Positions 9,432-42,513 of a stretch of 64,000 nt of DNA are shown in pieces. This DNA comes from an uncultured Succinivibrionaceae bacterium (GTDB lineage: Bacteria; Pseudomonadota; Gammaproteobacteria; Enterobacterales; Succinivibrionaceae), in the NCBI GenBank assembly GCA_944390105.1, contig CALXOV010000035.1, positions 1 to 64,000 of the forward strand, given 5' to 3'. Within the stretch, counting starts at the first letter, position 1; each line of letters begins with the position of its first letter. The translations under genes were made by a program, and so were the position numbers. The notes beneath the pieces are model-generated. The model ran no database searches, was not told the DNA's origin, and saw nothing but the letters and a program-made list of their open reading frames with translations.

Positions 9432-10706
9432 ATGTCATCACTTCTGCACGACGCCGCCGATAAAGAGGCGCTACTTAAGCTTGCCCGTCCGCTACGGCGG
9501 CAGCTGCATCAATGTCCGGAACTGGGTTTTGCTGAATGGCAGACCCTGAAAATTTTGCTGGATGAACTCGCCCCCCTGCCGCTGCAGCTTCACTTTCTGC
9601 CCGCAAGTCTTGCCGCCCAATATCCCGCGCGGGTGGATAGTCAGCACGAGGAAGCCTTGTATGCGGGCACTAAGATCACCATCCCCGGCCTGATGGCGAC
9701 TTTGCCCTTAAAACCGTCAGGACGGCATGTGGCGCTGCGCTGCGATATGGATGGATTAGCGCTTACTGAAAGCACAGCCTGCGCTCATCTTCCGGCCGCT
9801 TGCGGTTTTAACAGTACCAACGGTTGCATGCATGCCTGCGGGCATGACGGACATATGGCCATTTGCTTGACCATCATTAAAGTGCTGTGCGCCCATCTTC
9901 CTGAGCTGCAACAGACCACCGGAGATGTGGCACGCCTCAGTTTTATTTTCCAAGGAGCCGAAGAAGGCTGCGCTGGAGCACAGGTATGGCTAGATAGCGG
10001 ACTTATTGACGATATTGACGAGCTGTACTGCTTTCATTTAGGCATGGGCCTACCTGCAGGCAGCTTTAGCCCGTGCGCGGTTAATTTCTTAGCAACGCGT
10101 AAATTTAACGTCAGCGCTCAGGGTAAGAAAGCCCATGCCGGACGCCCCCAGCAGGGAGCACATGCGCTGCGCGCTTTGTGTGAGCTGATTACTAAAGCCA
10201 TGGCGCTACAGGATGCGACGGCCCAGCGCCTAATTAATTTTGGGGTGCTGCACTGCCCAGGTGCCCGCAATATCATCCCCGATGCAGCAACTGCCCAAGG
10301 GGAGCTGCGCGCGCGCAGTCGTGAAGAACTTGAGAGCTTAACCTGCAGCTTAGAGGCGTGTACTGCAGCTGCGCAACAGGCGGTAGCAGGCACAGAGCTT
10401 AGGCTTGATTACTGCGGTTATGGGCTGCCCATTACAGGCGATCGCAGGCTTGAAGACGCTTTGCGCCGTGCCGCACAGGCAGTAGGACTTAGCATTAGCC
10501 CCGACTTTGCTTTTGAGGCTTCGGAAGATGCGTCGCTTCTCATTGATTACGTGCAACGGCGCGGCGGAAGCGGCATCTACTCAGTATGCGGCGCGGCGCT
10601 TGCAGCCGGACATCATCAGACAAACTTTGATTTTAATGAAGAAGTGCTGTCCGCCGCCGCCGCACTTTATCTTCATCTGCTCGCGGCGCGCTGCAAGATA
10701 AGCTAA
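9432..10706 (+). CDS. M20 family amidohydrolase, AbgA-like
   Basis: 424 aa metal-dependent amidase/peptidase of the M20D type. Visible are CPELGFAE, the ALRCDMDG strand, the metal-ligand motif HACGHDGHMA (about residues 135-144), GAEEG (about 176-180) and a C-terminal SEDASLL...GHHQTNFDFNEE block. It resembles AbgA (p-aminobenzoyl-glutamate utilization) more than ArgE or DapE, but no AbgB or AbgT partner lies beside it. No signal peptide, so cytoplasmic. AAGAAAG lies just before the ATG. Substrate cannot be told from sequence. Confidence 0.8.
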   Translation: MSSLLHDAADKEALLKLARPLRRQLHQCPELGFAEWQTLKILLDELAPLPLQLHFLPASLAAQYPARVDSQHEEALYAGTKITIPGLMATLPLKPSGRHVALRCDMDGLALTESTACAHLPAACGFNSTNGCMHACGHDGHMAICLTIIKVLCAHLPELQQTTGDVARLSFIFQGAEEGCAGAQVWLDSGLIDDIDELYCFHLGMGLPAGSFSPCAVNFLATRKFNVSAQGKKAHAGRPQQGAHALRALCELITKAMALQDATAQRLINFGVLHCPGARNIIPDAATAQGELRARSREELESLTCSLEACTAAAQQAVAGTELRLDYCGYGLPITGDRRLEDALRRAAQAVGLSISPDFAFEASEDASLLIDYVQRRGGSGIYSVCGAALAAGHHQTNFDFNEEVLSAAAALYLHLLAARCKIS

Positions 10707-26391: not shown

Positions 26392-26607
26392 TTATTTATC
26401 CTCAATTGAGGTCACGCTGAAGCCTAAAGCGCCAATCACCCCGGCAATCATCTCATTGGACAGGGTGCTGTCAAAATTACCCTGCGCGCACTTGTCCTCA
26501 AGGGATACCGCAACCTCGCAAGCTCCTGGCAGTGCACTTAGAGCTTGAAGAACCGACGCAGTGCAATGGGCACAGTGCATACCCTCAATATGAATTACTT
26601 TATGCAT
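26392..26607 (-). CDS. CopZ-like copper chaperone embedded in copA
   Basis: An in-frame ATG inside copA (26607-26605) would give a free 71-aa HMA protein, MHKVIHIEGMHCAHCTAS..., the size and look of a stand-alone CopZ chaperone. The minus strand has AGGAG at 26621-26617, 9 nt before this ATG, a textbook ribosome-binding site within the ATPase reading frame. So copA mRNA may yield both the fused ATPase and a separate chaperone, a different route to the E. coli CopA(Z) frameshift product. Independent translation is an inference from the signal. Confidence 0.5.
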   Translation of the reverse strand: MHKVIHIEGMHCAHCTASVLQALSALPGACEVAVSLEDKCAQGNFDSTLSNEMIAGVIGALGFSVTSIEDK

Positions 26608-28887
26608 AAGTTGTTGCTCCTGAACGGCAGTCGCCTCCTGCGCCACGGCGTCAGAGTCACTGCCTAAGTTGACAAAATTAAGCCGCAGCGCGTTACTGAC
26701 CACGCACAGCGAACTTAAGGACATTAAAAACGCAGCAATCATCGGATTTAACTGCCAGCCTAGGGCTGGATACAACAGCCCCGCAGCCAGCGGAATGGTC
26801 AGCACATTGTAGATGAAAGCCCAAAACAGATTTTGCTTTATATTGCGATAAGTAAGCGCTGATAAAGACAAGGTACGCTCTAAAGTCAACAGCTTTGCGT
26901 TCATGAACACAATATCACAGGCAGCAACTGCAATGTCGCTTGCGCCATGCACGCCGATACCGACATCCGCCTGCGTCAGACACAACGCATCATTCACTCC
27001 ATCGCCGAGCATAATGACCCGCTGTCCGTGCGCCTGCAGCTCTTTTATTTCCTGCAGCTTGTCGGCAGCTAGAAGCTCTGCCTTAAAGCCATCGAGCTTA
27101 AGTTTCCTGCTGATATGCGCGGCAGCAGCCTGCCGATCGCCAGTTAACATCCGGCATTTAAGCCCACGCTGTTGCAGCCTTGCAATTAAGGCCGCTGCAT
27201 CCGGTTTGAGCTCATCCCCCAACACGTAGCTCATTAACAGCGCATCTTTAGTAAAGACGTGTAGCACCACCAGCCCCTGCGCTTCACGCGTGGCGCTAAG
27301 TTCAGCTGCCGCCTGCAAAGCAGGCAACGTCGGCGCAAGCAGCTCCTGCGCCCATTTAATATTGCCGCAGTAATAGATGCTGCCGCAAACCTCGCCTTGA
27401 ATGCCTCGCCCTTCAACTGTAGCAAAATCCTTGACCGGCAGCGCTGTCTTTACTCTAGATCCCAAATCACGCACTAAGGCCCCTGCCAAGGGATGGGCCG
27501 AACAGCTCTCTAAAGACAGTGCCAGCATATCGCCAAATGGCTTAATTCCTGCCTGACCCTCTACACTATCGAGCAACTTCAATTGCCCTTGAGTTAAAGT
27601 ACCGGTTTTATCAAAAATCACGGTGTCGGCACGGTTTATCACTTCAAGCGCCTCAAGGCGGCGAAACAGGATGCCCAGCCTGGCCGCCCGCCCCATGCCG
27701 ACCATCACCGCCGTCGGAGTGGCCAGCCCGAGCGCACAGGGACAGGAGACCACCAGCACGCACAGTGCAAAATTCAAGGCCTGGGCAAAAGGGGCATACC
27801 ACAGCCAAATGCCTAAGGTTAAAAGTGACAACGCTATTACTGTAGGCACAAAATAAAAGGCAATCGTATCGGCAAGGCGCGCCAACGGAACTTTCTGGCT
27901 TACCGTATCATCCATCAGTTTTAAGATCTGCGCAAAGGTAGTATCTTCACCCACAGCCTTAGCTTCAATCTCTAAAAAGCCTTGCGTCAGCACCGTACCG
28001 GACAGTACCTTAGCGCCGCAGCGTTTGCGCTGCGGCAAACTCTCACCGGTAAGCGAGCTTTCATCCATAAAGCCGTCGCCTGACAATACCACCCCGTCTA
28101 CACCCAGACTTTCCCCCACTTTAAGCAGCACCGTATCGCCCGCTACTACTTCATCGGGGGTAAGCAGCTGCTCACTTTCCTGCCGCCGTACGCGAATTAG
28201 CTTTGGGCTTAAATCAATTAAATGAGAGATAGCCTGCGTACTTTTAACTTTAGCTTTATGCTCAAAATACTTGCCAATGCCCACTAAACACAAAATTGAG
28301 GCTGCCGATTCAAAATATAAAGGATAGGCCTGATGCAGGGCTGCGACCTCAAGGCCGGGCGCTAAACGCAGACTTTGATAGAGAGAATAAATAAAAGAAG
28401 CTGCTGAACCTAAGGCGACCAAACTGTCCATATTAGGAGCAAGATGGAAAAGCGCCTTAAAGCCGCGGATAAAATACTGCCGCTGCAGTAGCATAACGCC
28501 AAGGGCAAGCCCTCCCTGCACGGCAGCCGAGGTCGGCGCATCGGCAATTAAAGTCAGCCCCGCCATCGGTCCCATCGCCAGTAACATTAAGATCAAAGTC
28601 AGGGCAAAGGATGCATACAGACCATAGCGCTGACGCTTTAGCGCTTGATCTGCATCCTCCTGCACCGCAGCAGGCTGCGCCAAACTAGCGCCGTAGCCGG
28701 CGCTTTTGACTGCCGCACAAATTAAAGCTACATTGAGCTTGGACTCATCATAGGTAATAAGCATGCTCTGCTGCAATAAATTGACGCGGCATGAAGTAAC
28801 GCCGCATAGCGATCCTGCCGCACGTTCCACGCGTGATGCACAAGCCGCACAGCTCATGCCCTGAATCGCATATTTTTCTTCGCGCAT
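26392..28887 (-). CDS. copA: Copper-exporting P1B-type ATPase with extra C-terminal HMA domain
   Basis: Pumps Cu(I) out of the cytoplasm. 831 aa. N-terminal HMA domain with GMSCAACAS (C13, C16), eight membrane helices, the actuator-domain motif SLTGES, the transmembrane metal site SCPCALGLATP (about residue 381), phosphorylation motif DKTGTLTQG (about 426) and hinge GDGVNDA. Unusually, after the last helices and a polar linker, residues 761-831 form a second HMA domain (GMHCAHC) that begins at its own Met with an internal ribosome-binding site (see the embedded copZ-like entry). AAGGGA precedes the ATG. Confidence 0.95.
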   Translation of the reverse strand: MREEKYAIQGMSCAACASRVERAAGSLCGVTSCRVNLLQQSMLITYDESKLNVALICAAVKSAGYGASLAQPAAVQEDADQALKRQRYGLYASFALTLILMLLAMGPMAGLTLIADAPTSAAVQGGLALGVMLLQRQYFIRGFKALFHLAPNMDSLVALGSAASFIYSLYQSLRLAPGLEVAALHQAYPLYFESAASILCLVGIGKYFEHKAKVKSTQAISHLIDLSPKLIRVRRQESEQLLTPDEVVAGDTVLLKVGESLGVDGVVLSGDGFMDESSLTGESLPQRKRCGAKVLSGTVLTQGFLEIEAKAVGEDTTFAQILKLMDDTVSQKVPLARLADTIAFYFVPTVIALSLLTLGIWLWYAPFAQALNFALCVLVVSCPCALGLATPTAVMVGMGRAARLGILFRRLEALEVINRADTVIFDKTGTLTQGQLKLLDSVEGQAGIKPFGDMLALSLESCSAHPLAGALVRDLGSRVKTALPVKDFATVEGRGIQGEVCGSIYYCGNIKWAQELLAPTLPALQAAAELSATREAQGLVVLHVFTKDALLMSYVLGDELKPDAAALIARLQQRGLKCRMLTGDRQAAAAHISRKLKLDGFKAELLAADKLQEIKELQAHGQRVIMLGDGVNDALCLTQADVGIGVHGASDIAVAACDIVFMNAKLLTLERTLSLSALTYRNIKQNLFWAFIYNVLTIPLAAGLLYPALGWQLNPMIAAFLMSLSSLCVVSNALRLNFVNLGSDSDAVAQEATAVQEQQLMHKVIHIEGMHCAHCTASVLQALSALPGACEVAVSLEDKCAQGNFDSTLSNEMIAGVIGALGFSVTSIEDK

Positions 28888-29034: not shown

Positions 29035-29052
29035 AGTTAGCCACAACTAACT
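29035..29052. promoter_or_regulatory. Palindromic operator AGTTAG-N6-CTAACT (copA locus)
   Basis: Perfect 6-bp arms with a 6-bp spacer (CCACAA), 148 bp upstream of copA. The identical format occurs twice at 42.0 kb, so this is very likely the binding site of one dimeric regulator. The regulator is not identified in this window. Confidence 0.55.
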
Positions 29053-29213: not shown

Positions 29214-29837
29214 ATGAATAATATAGAATTTACCAAATTACAAGACCCGATGCTGTCGCATCAGGCGCGCTCGCTCTACCTATTTTTCATCCGTCCGCGC
29301 GCTGAACAGGGCCTGTATTCCGCTCCGCTAGGTGAAATGATCCATGCGTTGCACAACAGCTCTCCGGTGTGTCCGTTTACCGCCACTCCGCAGTTGTGTA
29401 CTCAGCTTATGCAAGAATTGCAAGCCGCTGGCTTTATCGCTCCGCCCACGCCCGCTGCACGCCTACAAGGACGACAGTACAGTCTACCCTTGGTCGAGGC
29501 AGAAATGGCGCAGCTCCCTGCTTTGCCCTTTGCATTGCACAGCGCGTGGCGCCCCAGCCCGGATTTTGCTCAGACCGCCCGCATGGCAGGTCTTGACAAT
29601 GCAGAATTTACGGAAAAAGAGCTGCGTGCCTTTATCAGCTATTGGCAAGGTCGCCCCGAACAGCGCAATCAGCATGCCTGGGAGCGCGCCTTTGCCCAGC
29701 GGCTGGTCAAATATCGCTCAGCGCGCGTGCGTCCTGAACGTCGCGCCGCCGCCAGTCCTACGCCACAAGCAGCCCATAGCTCCGGCATTGCCGAAGGCTA
29801 CGTACCGCGCGAACTGCCGCTTCCGCCCCAACCTTAA
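29214..29837 (+). CDS. DnaT-like primosomal/ssDNA-binding domain protein
   Basis: 207 aa. The C-terminal half reads AWRPSPDFAQTARMAGLDNAEFTEKELRAFISYWQGR...QHAWERAFAQRL (about residues 103-160), the pattern of the DnaT C-terminal ssDNA-binding domain. The N-terminal half (SHQARSLYLFFIRPRAEQGL...LMQELQAAGFI) looks like a small winged-helix fold, as in the DnaT/PriB-associated proteins. The last 40 residues are disordered, Ala/Pro-rich. A role in replication restart is inferred from the family. No good ribosome-binding site before the ATG. folP follows 31 bp later. Confidence 0.7.
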   Translation: MNNIEFTKLQDPMLSHQARSLYLFFIRPRAEQGLYSAPLGEMIHALHNSSPVCPFTATPQLCTQLMQELQAAGFIAPPTPAARLQGRQYSLPLVEAEMAQLPALPFALHSAWRPSPDFAQTARMAGLDNAEFTEKELRAFISYWQGRPEQRNQHAWERAFAQRLVKYRSARVRPERRAAASPTPQAAHSSGIAEGYVPRELPLPPQP

Positions 29838-29868
29838 TCCTCTGCACCATGTGTTCTAAGGAAAAAAT

Positions 29869-30708
29869 ATGCAGCTACAATTAAAGCATCAGACTTTAGA
29901 TTTAAGCCGCCCGCAGATCATGGGTATTTTAAATGTCACCCCAGACTCGTTCTCTGACGGCGGCACTTATACCACGATTTCCGCCGCCGTCGATCACTGC
30001 GCGCGTATGCTCAAAGAAGGCGCGGATATCATTGATATCGGTGGCGAATCAACGCGTCCGTATGCCCCGAAAGTCAGCCCCGAGGAAGAATTAGCGCGCG
30101 TGATTCCGGTAGTTGAAGCGCTGCGGCAACGTTTTGCAGTTCCTCTGTCGCTTGACACTTCCACTGTGCAGGTGATGACCGCTGGCATTGCAGCAGGTGC
30201 GGATATGATCAATGATATTCGCGCCTTAAGCCGCCCGGGTGCGCTTGAAGCTGCCGCTGCGCTGCAGGTTCCCGTCTGCCTGATGCATATGCAGGGCACG
30301 CCGCAGAGCATGCAGGTTAAGCCGCACTATGACAATGTGGTGGCGGAAGTATTGGCCTTTCTCAAAGCTCGGGCTCATGCGTGTGAGCGCGCGGGTATTA
30401 AACGGGAAAACATCATTCTTGATCCTGGCTTTGGCTTTGGCAAAAGCGTACGCGACAATTACGCCCTATTAAACGCCCTGCCCCAATTTGCTACGCTGCC
30501 CTATGCGCTGCTGATTGGGCTGTCGCGCAAAAGCATGATCGGCGCGGTCATTCATGAAAATGACCCCAAAGCTCGCGTTAATGCCTCCGCTGCCGCAGCT
30601 ATGCTGTGCGCCGAGCGCGGCGCTCACATTCTGCGCGTGCATGATGTGAAAGTCACCGCGCAGATGCTTGCGGTACTGCAGGCAGTTAAGGAGGCGGCAT
30701 GCTACTGA
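29869..30708 (+). CDS. folP: Dihydropteroate synthase
   Basis: Condenses p-aminobenzoate with dihydropterin pyrophosphate in folate synthesis; sulfonamide target. 279 aa TIM barrel. Signatures IMGILNVTPDSFSDGG (about residues 17-32) and DIIDIGGESTRP (about 56-67), then LMHMQGTPQ and ILDPGFGFGK. AAGGAA precedes the ATG. Overlaps the next gene by 10 bp. Confidence 0.96.
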   Translation: MQLQLKHQTLDLSRPQIMGILNVTPDSFSDGGTYTTISAAVDHCARMLKEGADIIDIGGESTRPYAPKVSPEEELARVIPVVEALRQRFAVPLSLDTSTVQVMTAGIAAGADMINDIRALSRPGALEAAAALQVPVCLMHMQGTPQSMQVKPHYDNVVAEVLAFLKARAHACERAGIKRENIILDPGFGFGKSVRDNYALLNALPQFATLPYALLIGLSRKSMIGAVIHENDPKARVNASAAAAMLCAERGAHILRVHDVKVTAQMLAVLQAVKEAACY

Positions 30709-31418
30709 TCGCTGCAGCAGCTGCCGTATCATCACTTTGCGCGATGGCCGCGCTGCTACTCATCGGCCTGCAGCGCATTGAGCGCATGGCCAAGTCCTTA
30801 GCGCTACTTGCCGCCGGCATGCTGCTGACTATCTCTTGCGCGCATCTACTGCCCGAAGCGCTGCACTCGGCAGCTGACAGTCATAGTTTAGGCCTGACTG
30901 CACTTATAACGCTTTTGAGCTTAATTATCCTTGAGATGGTGCTCGCCAATGGCCGCAACGGCCATCAGCACAGCTTAGGCAGCGGTGCTGCCGGTTTATT
31001 AGGCGGAACCTTGGTGCATACCGCCTGTGACGGCATTATGCTAGCCGCGGCTTTTGCGGCAGATATAAACGTGGGTTTGGCGCTGACTGCTGCCATTTTT
31101 GCCCATGAACTGCCGCAGGAAATGGGGGACTATGCGTTACTGCTTGAATGCGGCTTTAACCGTAAACAGGCCTTTGCGGTAAACCTCACTGCGCTCGTGG
31201 GCATGGTCGGCGGAGCGCTTAGTTCTAGCCTGATTCTAAGTACCATCAGTTCCCTGCTGCCCTATGCCCTGACCATAGCAGCCGCCAGCTTCATGTATGT
31301 TGCCCTATCTGATCTGCTGCCCAAGCTGCGCCACACCGCATCCCGCGGCCAACTGCTACACCGCCTTGGCAGTCTGCTTAGCGGCGTCATCTTGGCACTA
31401 CTTTTAGTACATCACTAA
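30699..31418 (+). CDS. ZIP-family divalent metal transporter
   Basis: 239 aa with about eight membrane helices. The metal-site helices are HTACDGIMLAAAF (helix 4, about residues 107-119) and HELPQEMGDYALLL (helix 5, about 143-156), the ZIP signature with Thr in place of the usual Asn in HNxxDG. A short His-rich loop NGRNGHQHSLG lies between helices 3 and 4. Likely zinc or similar cation uptake, inner membrane. Starts inside the end of folP (10-bp overlap) and so is translated from the same mRNA. Confidence 0.9.
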   Translation: MLLIAAAAAVSSLCAMAALLLIGLQRIERMAKSLALLAAGMLLTISCAHLLPEALHSAADSHSLGLTALITLLSLIILEMVLANGRNGHQHSLGSGAAGLLGGTLVHTACDGIMLAAAFAADINVGLALTAAIFAHELPQEMGDYALLLECGFNRKQAFAVNLTALVGMVGGALSSSLILSTISSLLPYALTIAAASFMYVALSDLLPKLRHTASRGQLLHRLGSLLSGVILALLLVHH

Positions 31419-41126: not shown

Positions 41127-41894
41127 ATGTCCACTTATCTACTTGAAATCTGCGCCGGCAACCTGCAAAGTGCGGTTAATGCCGCTCAGGCCGGAGCCGC
41201 GCGCATTGAGCTGTGTGCAGCCTTGTCCGAAGGCGGACTTACCCCTTCATATGGATTGCTAAAAGTCTGCCGCGCTGCCGTGGGAAAGACTAAGCTTAAT
41301 GTCCTGATCCGCCCGCGCGGTGGCGACTTTGTCTACAGCCGCGCTGAGCTTGATATCATGCTACAGGATATTGCTGTGGCTAAGTGTTTAGGGGCCGATG
41401 GGCTAGTGCTGGGCTGCCTTAACGCTGATGGCACGCTTGATATTCCCGCGCTACAGGAATTGTTAGCCGCCGCTGCGCCGCTGCCGGTCACTTTTCATCG
41501 CGCCTTTGATCACTGCCGCGATCCGCAGGACGCACTGATGCAGTTAATTAAGCTGCCGGTGGCGCGCGTGCTAACCTCAGGGCAAGCGTCTAGCGCACTG
41601 CAAGGGACTGCCCTTATCGCTAAATTGCAGGCAGTGGCGCAGGGGCGCATCTGCATTATGCCCGGCGCCGGCATTAGTGCCGACAATCTTGCCGCCGTCG
41701 CCGCCGCTACCGGCTGCCGTGAATTTCATATGTCAGCTAAAACACGGGTAGGTTCTGCCATGCGCTTGCGGCACAATAGCCCCATTGTAGGCGGCAGCTG
41801 CCAGATTGATGATTACGATATAGACATCTCAGACCCCTCTGCCATTCAGGCAGCCCTTGCCGTGTTGCAGACGCTACCTGACGCTGCGCCATAA
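41127..41894 (+). CDS. cutC: CutC family protein
   Basis: 255 aa TIM-barrel protein historically linked to copper homeostasis; the real activity is unclear, and in E. coli the copper effect may be indirect. N-terminal LEICAGNLQSAVNAAQAGAARIELCAALSEGGLTPS, then VLIRPRGGDFVYS, VTFHRAFDHCRDP, RVLTSGQA and IMPGAGISADN are all CutC signatures. AAAGGAG precedes the ATG by 7 bp. It ends directly at the inverted repeat that also terminates the leftward small-RNA candidate. Confidence 0.93.
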   Translation: MSTYLLEICAGNLQSAVNAAQAGAARIELCAALSEGGLTPSYGLLKVCRAAVGKTKLNVLIRPRGGDFVYSRAELDIMLQDIAVAKCLGADGLVLGCLNADGTLDIPALQELLAAAAPLPVTFHRAFDHCRDPQDALMQLIKLPVARVLTSGQASSALQGTALIAKLQAVAQGRICIMPGAGISADNLAAVAAATGCREFHMSAKTRVGSAMRLRHNSPIVGGSCQIDDYDIDISDPSAIQAALAVLQTLPDAAP

Positions 41895-41930
41895 AAAAAA
41901 GGACTTCTAAGGGAACAACCTAGAAGTCCT
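41892..41930 (-). terminator. Terminator of a leftward transcript
   Basis: AGGACTTCTA / TAGAAGTCCT, perfect 10-bp stem (41900-41909 and 41921-41930), followed on the minus strand by eight T. On the plus strand only AAAG follows, so it chiefly stops leftward transcripts, although no leftward protein gene ends here. Confidence 0.85.
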
Positions 41931-42025
41931 AAAGCAACCACCTGATGTGTGAAATTGCGACATGCAAGGAGCAGCTTAAAAGAACACGTGGAAATCTTTT
42001 GTCTGCTAGTTAGCTTTAACTAACT
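41895..42025 (-). ncRNA. Candidate small RNA under operator control
   Basis: A roughly 130-nt leftward transcript is predicted from the promoter TTGCTA-17-TACACT (-35 at 42060-42055, -10 at 42037-42032) to the strong terminator at 41892-41930. One operator covers the -35 element and the other overlaps the expected start. The only internal open frame (MSQFHTSGGC..., 18 aa) lacks a ribosome-binding site. No gene lies downstream, so this is not an attenuator. Confidence 0.5.
42008..42025. promoter_or_regulatory. Operator AGTTAG-N6-CTAACT, site 1 at 42 kb
   Basis: Perfect arms with spacer CTTTAA. Overlaps the predicted transcription start of the leftward small RNA. A further AGTTAG half-site at 42028-42033 forms ACTAAC-TGTA-GTTAGT with its right arm, suggesting cooperative binding. 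Confidence 0.6.
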
Positions 42026-42031
42026 GTAGTT

Positions 42032-42060
42032 AGTGTACGCTATTTAAATTGAGTTAGCAA
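42032..42060 (-). promoter_or_regulatory. Promoter of the leftward small RNA
   Basis: Minus strand TTGCTA (42060-42055), 17 bp, TACACT (42037-42032). Flanked by operators on both sides, 44 bp centre to centre. Confidence 0.5.
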
Positions 42061-42069
42061 TAGCTAACT
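42052..42069. promoter_or_regulatory. Operator AGTTAG-N6-CTAACT, site 2 at 42 kb
   Basis: Perfect arms with spacer CAATAG (arms extend to AGTTAGC-AATA-GCTAACT). Overlaps the -35 element of the leftward promoter and is 30 bp from the -35 of the rightward small RNA. Confidence 0.6.
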
Positions 42070-42135: not shown

Positions 42136-42263
42136 AAAAATTTTGGAACTTTTTGCTATCCCAGGGCTCTAAGTATCAGTTCCGCAAGGAACACGGAATT
42201 CATGTTTGCTTCTTCTGAATACCAAAATCCCATTACGCCAGGCCGCAGCGCCTGGCTTTTTCT
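42136..42263 (+). ncRNA. Tandem small RNA candidate 1
   Basis: About 125 nt ending in GCCAGGC-CGCAGC-GCCTGGC plus TTTTTCTT. Shares with candidate 2 (42382-42499) the blocks GGAACTTTT, CTCTAAG, CAGTTCC, TTCATGTTTGCTTCTTCTG, AAAATCCC and the terminator. A short frame MFASSEYQNPITPG... runs through it, but differences from copy 2 are mostly amino-acid changing, so conservation looks RNA-level. Class not recognised. Confidence 0.55.
42237..42263 (+). terminator. Terminator of small RNA 1
   Basis: GCCAGGC / GCCTGGC, 7-bp perfect stem, 6-nt loop, then TTTTTCTT. Confidence 0.88.
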
Positions 42264-42381
42264 TGCCCGTAAGGTGCACCCATCTCACACACCATCCGCC
42301 AATGGCATATAATATTTTATGAATAAAATCAAACAATAATTTTAAAATCGCCAATATTGAAAAAATTTTTTATCAAACGCA

Positions 42382-42499
42382 GGAACTTTTGACGGCAAGC
42401 GAACTCTAAGCTACAGTTCCGATGAGAACATCGATTTCATGTTTGCTTCTTCTGGATATCAAAATCCCGTTATGCCAGGCCACAGCGCCTGGCTTTTTC
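42382..42499 (+). ncRNA. Tandem small RNA candidate 2
   Basis: Paralogue of candidate 1, 237 bp further right. The 5' stem differs: CGAT-GAGAAC-ATCG replaces GTTCC-GCAA-GGAAC, while the TTCATGTTTGCTTCTTCTG single-stranded block and terminator are kept. Its promoter is unclear; TTGAAA (42357-42362) and TATCAA (42371-42376) are too close together. Confidence 0.5.
42474..42499 (+). terminator. Terminator of small RNA 2
   Basis: GCCAGGC-CACAGC-GCCTGGC followed by TTTTTCTTG; it also faces the end of tilS. Confidence 0.88.
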
Positions 42500-42513
42500 T
42501 TGTTTGCGTAAGC

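Follow-up and report, generated by a model that had tools for sequence, protein, structure and literature searches.

What recognizes the palindrome AGTTAG-N6-CTAACT, and what does it control? A preliminary description of the window (the whole stretch of 64,000 nucleotides that was analysed) had reported three copies with perfect arms and differing spacers, two at a small-RNA locus and one 148 bp upstream of the copper ATPase gene copA. It took them for sites of one dimeric regulator, with a copper or metal-stress regulon as one idea. The window sequence carries the perfect-arm copies at 29035-29052 (spacer CCACAA), 42008-42025 (CTTTAA) and 42052-42069 (CAATAG), exactly as described. The start-to-start distance of the two 42-kb sites is indeed 44 bp, and the copA site lies 147 bp from the ATG at 28887. 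A degenerate copy lies between the 42-kb sites, 20 bp from operator D. The sites are as follows.

29035..29052, no strand assigned: copA operator AGTTAGCCACAACTAACT, adjoining a possible minus-strand -10 box TATAGT
42008..42025, no strand assigned: operator D AGTTAGCTTTAACTAACT, spanning roughly positions +1 to +18 of the minus-strand RNA
42028..42045, no strand assigned: degenerate third copy with 2 mismatches, between D and U, overlapping the -10 box
42052..42069, no strand assigned: operator U AGTTAGCAATAGCTAACT, including the -35 box of the minus-strand promoter

The genome-wide scan that the preliminary description had proposed found no further perfect copy in the genome of the window (G000; 2.53 Mb, 66 contigs); thus the perfect motif stands at 3 places, with 0.13 copies expected from base composition. 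The chance of at least three perfect copies in this genome is P about 3e-4, and that of two within ~50 bp is about 3e-7. When one mismatch was allowed, 10 places were found versus 5 for the reversed pattern; apart from the one at feoA (C43:47066), these additional sites looked like chance matches, and one was intragenic.

The 42-kb palindromes straddle a minus-strand promoter of the sigma-70 type, TTGCTA-N17-TACACT. On the minus strand the order is operator U with the -35 box, the -10 box, operator D, the RNA body, and a hairpin followed by T8. Since the T-run is present on the minus-strand side only, the direction of the RNA is fixed. The elements of this predicted gene are listed below.

42055..42060, minus strand: -35 box TTGCTA, with 17-bp-spaced equivalents in G001-G004
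42032..42037, minus strand: -10 box TACACT, spacer 17 bp
41893..42025, minus strand: predicted small RNA of ~133 nt with an estimated start, divergent from a sigma-E-type pair
41936..41967, minus strand: RNA core TTGCATGT-N17-GGTGGTT, candidate pairing region for the start of the desulfoferrodoxin mRNA
41893..41930, minus strand: intrinsic terminator with a 12-bp stem and T8; the stem is kept and its sequence changed in congeners

The same order of promoter and RNA was found in the congeners G001, G002, G003 and G004, and a shorter RNA in G015, which belongs to another genus. The blocks TTYCACGTGT, TGCTCCTTGCA and GGTGGTT are nearly invariant in the five congeners G000-G004. Two perfect operators, 44-45 bp apart, are present at the RNA in G000 and G004, a single one in G002, G003 and G015, and only a degenerate one in G001. 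Operators that span the -35 box and the start site suggest a layout for repression. RNAalifold gave no strong consensus structure for the RNA body, a search of Rfam, the RyhB model included, gave nothing above chance for the locus, and inspection of the congener sequences showed no conserved small reading frame. No tRNA was found near the locus. Hfq is encoded in G000 by two paralogues (C21:5820-6005 and C60:46659-46841); all five genomes of the genus have two, and G015 has one.

Could the palindromes be conserved for a role in RNA, as hairpins or terminators, and not as protein sites? Operator D, when transcribed, could fold into a 5' hairpin of the transcript, and 42052-42069 scores as a weak terminator. 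However, operator U lies outside the transcript, the copA copy is not followed by the T-run of a true terminator, and identical arms with the 6-base spacing recur upstream of iron genes in many genomes, so that this explanation is very improbable.

The small-RNA locus also contains two plus-strand repeats (42167-42265 and 42404-42502), which belong to the following units.

42145-42265, plus strand: sigma-E-type small-RNA unit with a GGAACTT-N16-TCTAA promoter and an intrinsic terminator
42382-42502, plus strand: a second unit of the same build

We take GGAACTT-N16-TCTAA to be the sigma-E consensus; all 12 of its exact matches in 718 kb of DNA precede such units. Tandem units were also found in G002, G003, G004, G015 and G016, and one unit in G001. 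G004 has two more (L050:8604-8760 and 9871-10020), several kb from its main pair. The plus-strand repeats were considered as the RNA under control of the palindromes and rejected, because they have sigma-E-type promoters and the operators lie in the divergent promoter. Thus, the operator does stand at a small-RNA locus as first reported, but the RNA that is apparently controlled is the minus-strand one.

The palindrome is conserved in the family to which G000 belongs (f1). The perfect motif matched 23 times versus 3 for reversed controls in 25 genomes of the family, and once versus 10 in 16 genomes of other families. A relaxed form, GTTAGC-N4-RCTAAC, matched 39 times versus 0 for the control in 16 f1 genomes. 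When the consensus was drawn from 66 distinct sites, all preselected for their GTTAG/CTAAC arms, it read WGTTAGC-N4-GCTAACW. In front of 25 feoA or feoB-leading starts, sites that matched 8 or more of the 10 arm bases numbered 51, versus 2.9 in shuffles. When 9 or more of the 10 had to match, the 6-base spacing accounted for 34 sites and any other spacing from 0 to 13 for at most 7; enrichment in front of feoA is thus confined to a spacing of 6 bases. The distance between neighbouring sites is most commonly 20 bp, or about two turns of the helix.

The genes behind the sites are largely iron genes, where loci were selected by presence of the motif, except for the feo loci, which were selected by gene, and where genes were named by eye from translations unless Pfam was used. 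Sites precede feoAB (e.g., in G006, G008, G009, G012, G020 and G024), a siderophore-type ABC permease (G012) and a TonB-dependent receptor (G009). Siderophore-synthetase-like genes and ExbB-ExbD-TonB follow sites in G008 and G014, ZIP transporters in G012 and G014, and an operon of Fur-like and DtxR-like genes in G002, G005 and G006. In G000 itself, feoA on contig C43 is preceded by AGTTAGTCTTAGCTAATT and AGTCAGGATACGCTTACT, 20 bp apart. G013 has TAATGTTAGGCTAACATTA upstream of feoB, which is close to a full DtxR box, and G023 carries a similar sequence. Further sites lie near porins, ahpC/ahpF and pyruvate:ferredoxin oxidoreductase, for which the link is less clear, and some are far from starts or near genes with no clear iron link.

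The copper pump gene is the remaining candidate member in the window.

26392..28887, minus strand: copA, Cu+ P-type ATPase; five genomes, from three genera, have the operator in front of it

One or two sites lie ~40 to 150 bp upstream of copA in G000, G003, G005, G012 and G022, and the neighbours of copA differ among these three genera, which supports the earlier claim of an operator common to the small RNA and copA. A DnaT-like gene, folP and a ZIP transporter (29214-31418, plus strand) point away from the copA operator in the window, and dnaT and folP stand beside copA in G003 as well. The idea of a metal regulon held, with iron as the family-wide theme, but its copper part did not. A copper/cutC regulon was rejected because, among the loci whose flanks were read, the RNA adjoins cutC only in G000 and G004; cutC is not beside the RNA in G003 and G015. 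On the sequence evidence, AGTTAG-N6-CTAACT is a real operator, and not one of a copper or cutC kind. One idea for the membership of copA is that iron-starved cells, which import metals via less selective systems, need copper export.

Which protein would bind the operator? The preliminary description could name no operator of this format, yet TTAG-N6-CTAA is the format of a single-dimer DtxR/IdeR site; its proposal of one dimeric regulator finds support. IdeR binds as two dimers to TTAGGTTAGSCTAACCTAA and as one dimer to the half-site TTAGG-N4-CCTAA (PMC8464063). The 19-bp DtxR/IdeR box consists of two TTAG-N6-CTAA dyads offset by 5 bp, and TTAGC-N4-GCTAA differs from the IdeR half-site in having C in place of G. 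A single DtxR-family protein, of 148 aa, is encoded in G000 (L082:4622-5068, minus strand; about C16:11121-11567), with the domains Fe_dep_repress and Fe_dep_repr_C; the candidate is thus not of the TetR/MarR/ArsR type that had been suggested. By sequence, its nearest solved relative is E. coli MntR, followed by DtxR and IdeR, and its AlphaFold model (mean pLDDT 83) matches the same three proteins. All 14 family members compared share H101, C124, E127 and H128; we equate these residues with H79, C102, E105 and H106 of DtxR, an iron-type set. The ligand set is not identical to that of DtxR, because the Met10 position is Asn or Thr. A search for an autoregulatory copy of the site had also been proposed. 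Sites do stand at the regulator's own operon in G002, G005 and G006, whereas in G000, and likewise in G004, this operon is preceded by a pair of degenerate sites at a distance of 20 bp. In six relatives (L093, L095, L096, L097, L098 and L099), two DtxR units lie in a single reading frame, with two PF01325 matches in 274-322 aa, and the product is possibly a single-chain dimer. None of the papers searched links Succinivibrionaceae with DtxR.

We conclude that AGTTAG-N6-CTAACT is quite likely the single-dimer operator of a DtxR/IdeR-family repressor over the small RNA, feoAB, its own operon and copA, and that the repressor is probably activated by Fe(II). What the sequences show is the operator and its setting among iron genes of the family, the regulator gene with its ligands, and a conserved promoter, RNA body and terminator; binding, the identity of the metal as iron, the sign of control, transcription of the RNA and its targets are inferred. 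Points that speak against this reading are the degenerate sites at the regulator operon of G000, the sites with no clear iron link or far from starts, the degenerate operator at the RNA of G001, the lack of an Rfam match, and a Fur-like half protein from the regulator's operon that could itself be the binder or a partner.

MntR has Glu at the position of C102 in DtxR, and its operator is a dyad with a TAGC-N4-GCTA core. A regulator that senses manganese, with an MntR-type regulon and the RNA as counterpart of rybA/mntS, might be considered, as E. coli MntR is both the nearest solved structure and the NCBIfam model, and is known to repress the small RNA gene rybA/mntS (PMC4361602). Against this, the target genes are iron genes, Cys is invariant at the C102 position, the RNA showed no conserved small reading frame on inspection, and the protein scores 82.6 bits with the NCBIfam E. 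coli MntR model, well under its cut-off of 153. Manganese sensing is thus rather improbable.

Fur itself was rejected as the regulator: no canonical Fur turned up, and the format of the site is a different one. Full-length Fur scores 147-164 bits in other families of the order, and none was found in the 16 f1 genomes tested. The only Fur match in G000 is a partial one, to a 148-aa protein that matches Fur over its first half (40.6 bits) but not over its second. Other Fur-superfamily proteins (61-91 bits) are present in some f1 genomes, so the claim that a Fur-class iron sensor is absent carries more weight in G000 than across the family. The half-Fur protein of G000 is encoded next to the DtxR-like gene.

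L082:5152-5598, minus strand: half-Fur gene, operon partner of the DtxR-like gene, with a highly conserved DNA-binding half

Its structure model is of moderate confidence (pTM 0.45), and Foldseek matches it weakly to Fur/PerR proteins. It is unlikely, though slightly less so than manganese sensing, that half-Fur binds the operator, alone or jointly with the DtxR-like protein. The shared operon in most genomes, the very conserved DNA-binding half and the Fur-superfamily match would fit such a role, as would the few or no close matches to the relaxed motif in G007 and G013, which lack a Fur match. However, these two genomes keep sites of the N6 or DtxR-box-like kind in front of their feo genes, and the operator has the architecture of a DtxR half-site. 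Moreover, in G011 and G021, where the DtxR-like gene lies behind feoAB and has no Fur-like neighbour, sites of the form TTAGC-N4-GCTAA are present upstream.

With the DtxR-like protein as repressor, the circuit would work as follows. When iron is plentiful, the iron-loaded protein would occupy both 42-kb sites, so that the minus-strand RNA is not transcribed, and its binding to the other operators would silence feoAB and copA; shortage would release them. It would also control its own operon. When iron is scarce, the RNA would be made and would repress mRNAs of iron-using proteins, probably with Hfq, in a RyhB-like manner.

A candidate target came from a family-wide search of 57 genomes with the pattern TTGCATGT-N4..30-GGTGGTT. 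It matched the small-RNA gene in G000, G001, G002, G004 and G015. An unexpected further match, present in G000 and G004, was to the antisense of the desulfoferrodoxin start; unrelated matches were found in five other genomes. Desulfoferrodoxin is superoxide reductase (PF01880). Its mRNA starts with AACCACC-N-GAGG-N-ACATGCAA, an order in which both RNA blocks could pair across the ribosome-binding site and the start codon. The gene is present in four of five congeners, with AACCACC in the leader of three; the first block is absent in G001. In a scan with AACCACC-N-AGG-N-ATG, no real gene start other than that of desulfoferrodoxin recurred in the loci read. By duplex energy, however, it ranked 43rd of 134, not above other genes, and a target scan with the CUCCUUGCAUGU block returned small-RNA genes and chance matches only. 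Taken together, this makes the desulfoferrodoxin mRNA a tentative target of the minus-strand RNA, with the odds slightly against it.

The closest known system for the operator is the actinobacterial DtxR/IdeR iron box, which shares the TTAG-N6-CTAA dyad, iron-uptake targets and Cys/Glu/His ligands. Here, in contrast, the dyads are single and often repeated at intervals of ~20 bp, and their inner bases are C/G where the iron box has G/C; the regulator has two domains and no SH3-like domain; the host is Gram-negative; and a small RNA and copA appear to be controlled. E. coli MntR, the closest solved relative, shares the dyad core TAGC-N4-GCTA and represses a small-RNA gene, as is predicted here, but the gene set here is that of iron rather than manganese, Cys replaces the Glu ligand, and no MntS-like frame was seen. 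Iron control in gammaproteobacteria is the textbook Fur-RyhB circuit. Like Fur-RyhB (and PrrF, NrrF and HrrF), the present locus would place an iron repressor before a small RNA with promoter and terminator, Hfq is encoded, and the candidate target, an iron enzyme, acts against superoxide. It differs in its DtxR-type operator, in that canonical Fur was not found, in an RNA with no Rfam match and in targets that are predicted. The minus-strand RNA would thus be an analogue of RyhB, not a homologue. MrsI of mycobacteria is an iron-sparing small RNA linked to a DtxR/IdeR-family regulator; the host group is unrelated and the likeness is one of regulation.

It is conceivable, though on balance somewhat doubtful, that a whole gammaproteobacterial family has swapped Fur for a DtxR/IdeR-like regulator, with a relic of Fur as partner and its own iron-sparing RNA acting on superoxide reductase. 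If so, superoxide reductase would be repressed in place of the iron superoxide dismutase repressed by RyhB. The predicted minus-strand small RNA is previously undescribed, and the motif yields a directly testable regulon, in which three genera have a copper pump under what is predicted to be an iron switch. Both halves of the circuit appear to be rebuilt in this family (probably Succinivibrionaceae, which are gut and rumen bacteria), with a DtxR-type repressor and an unrelated RNA.
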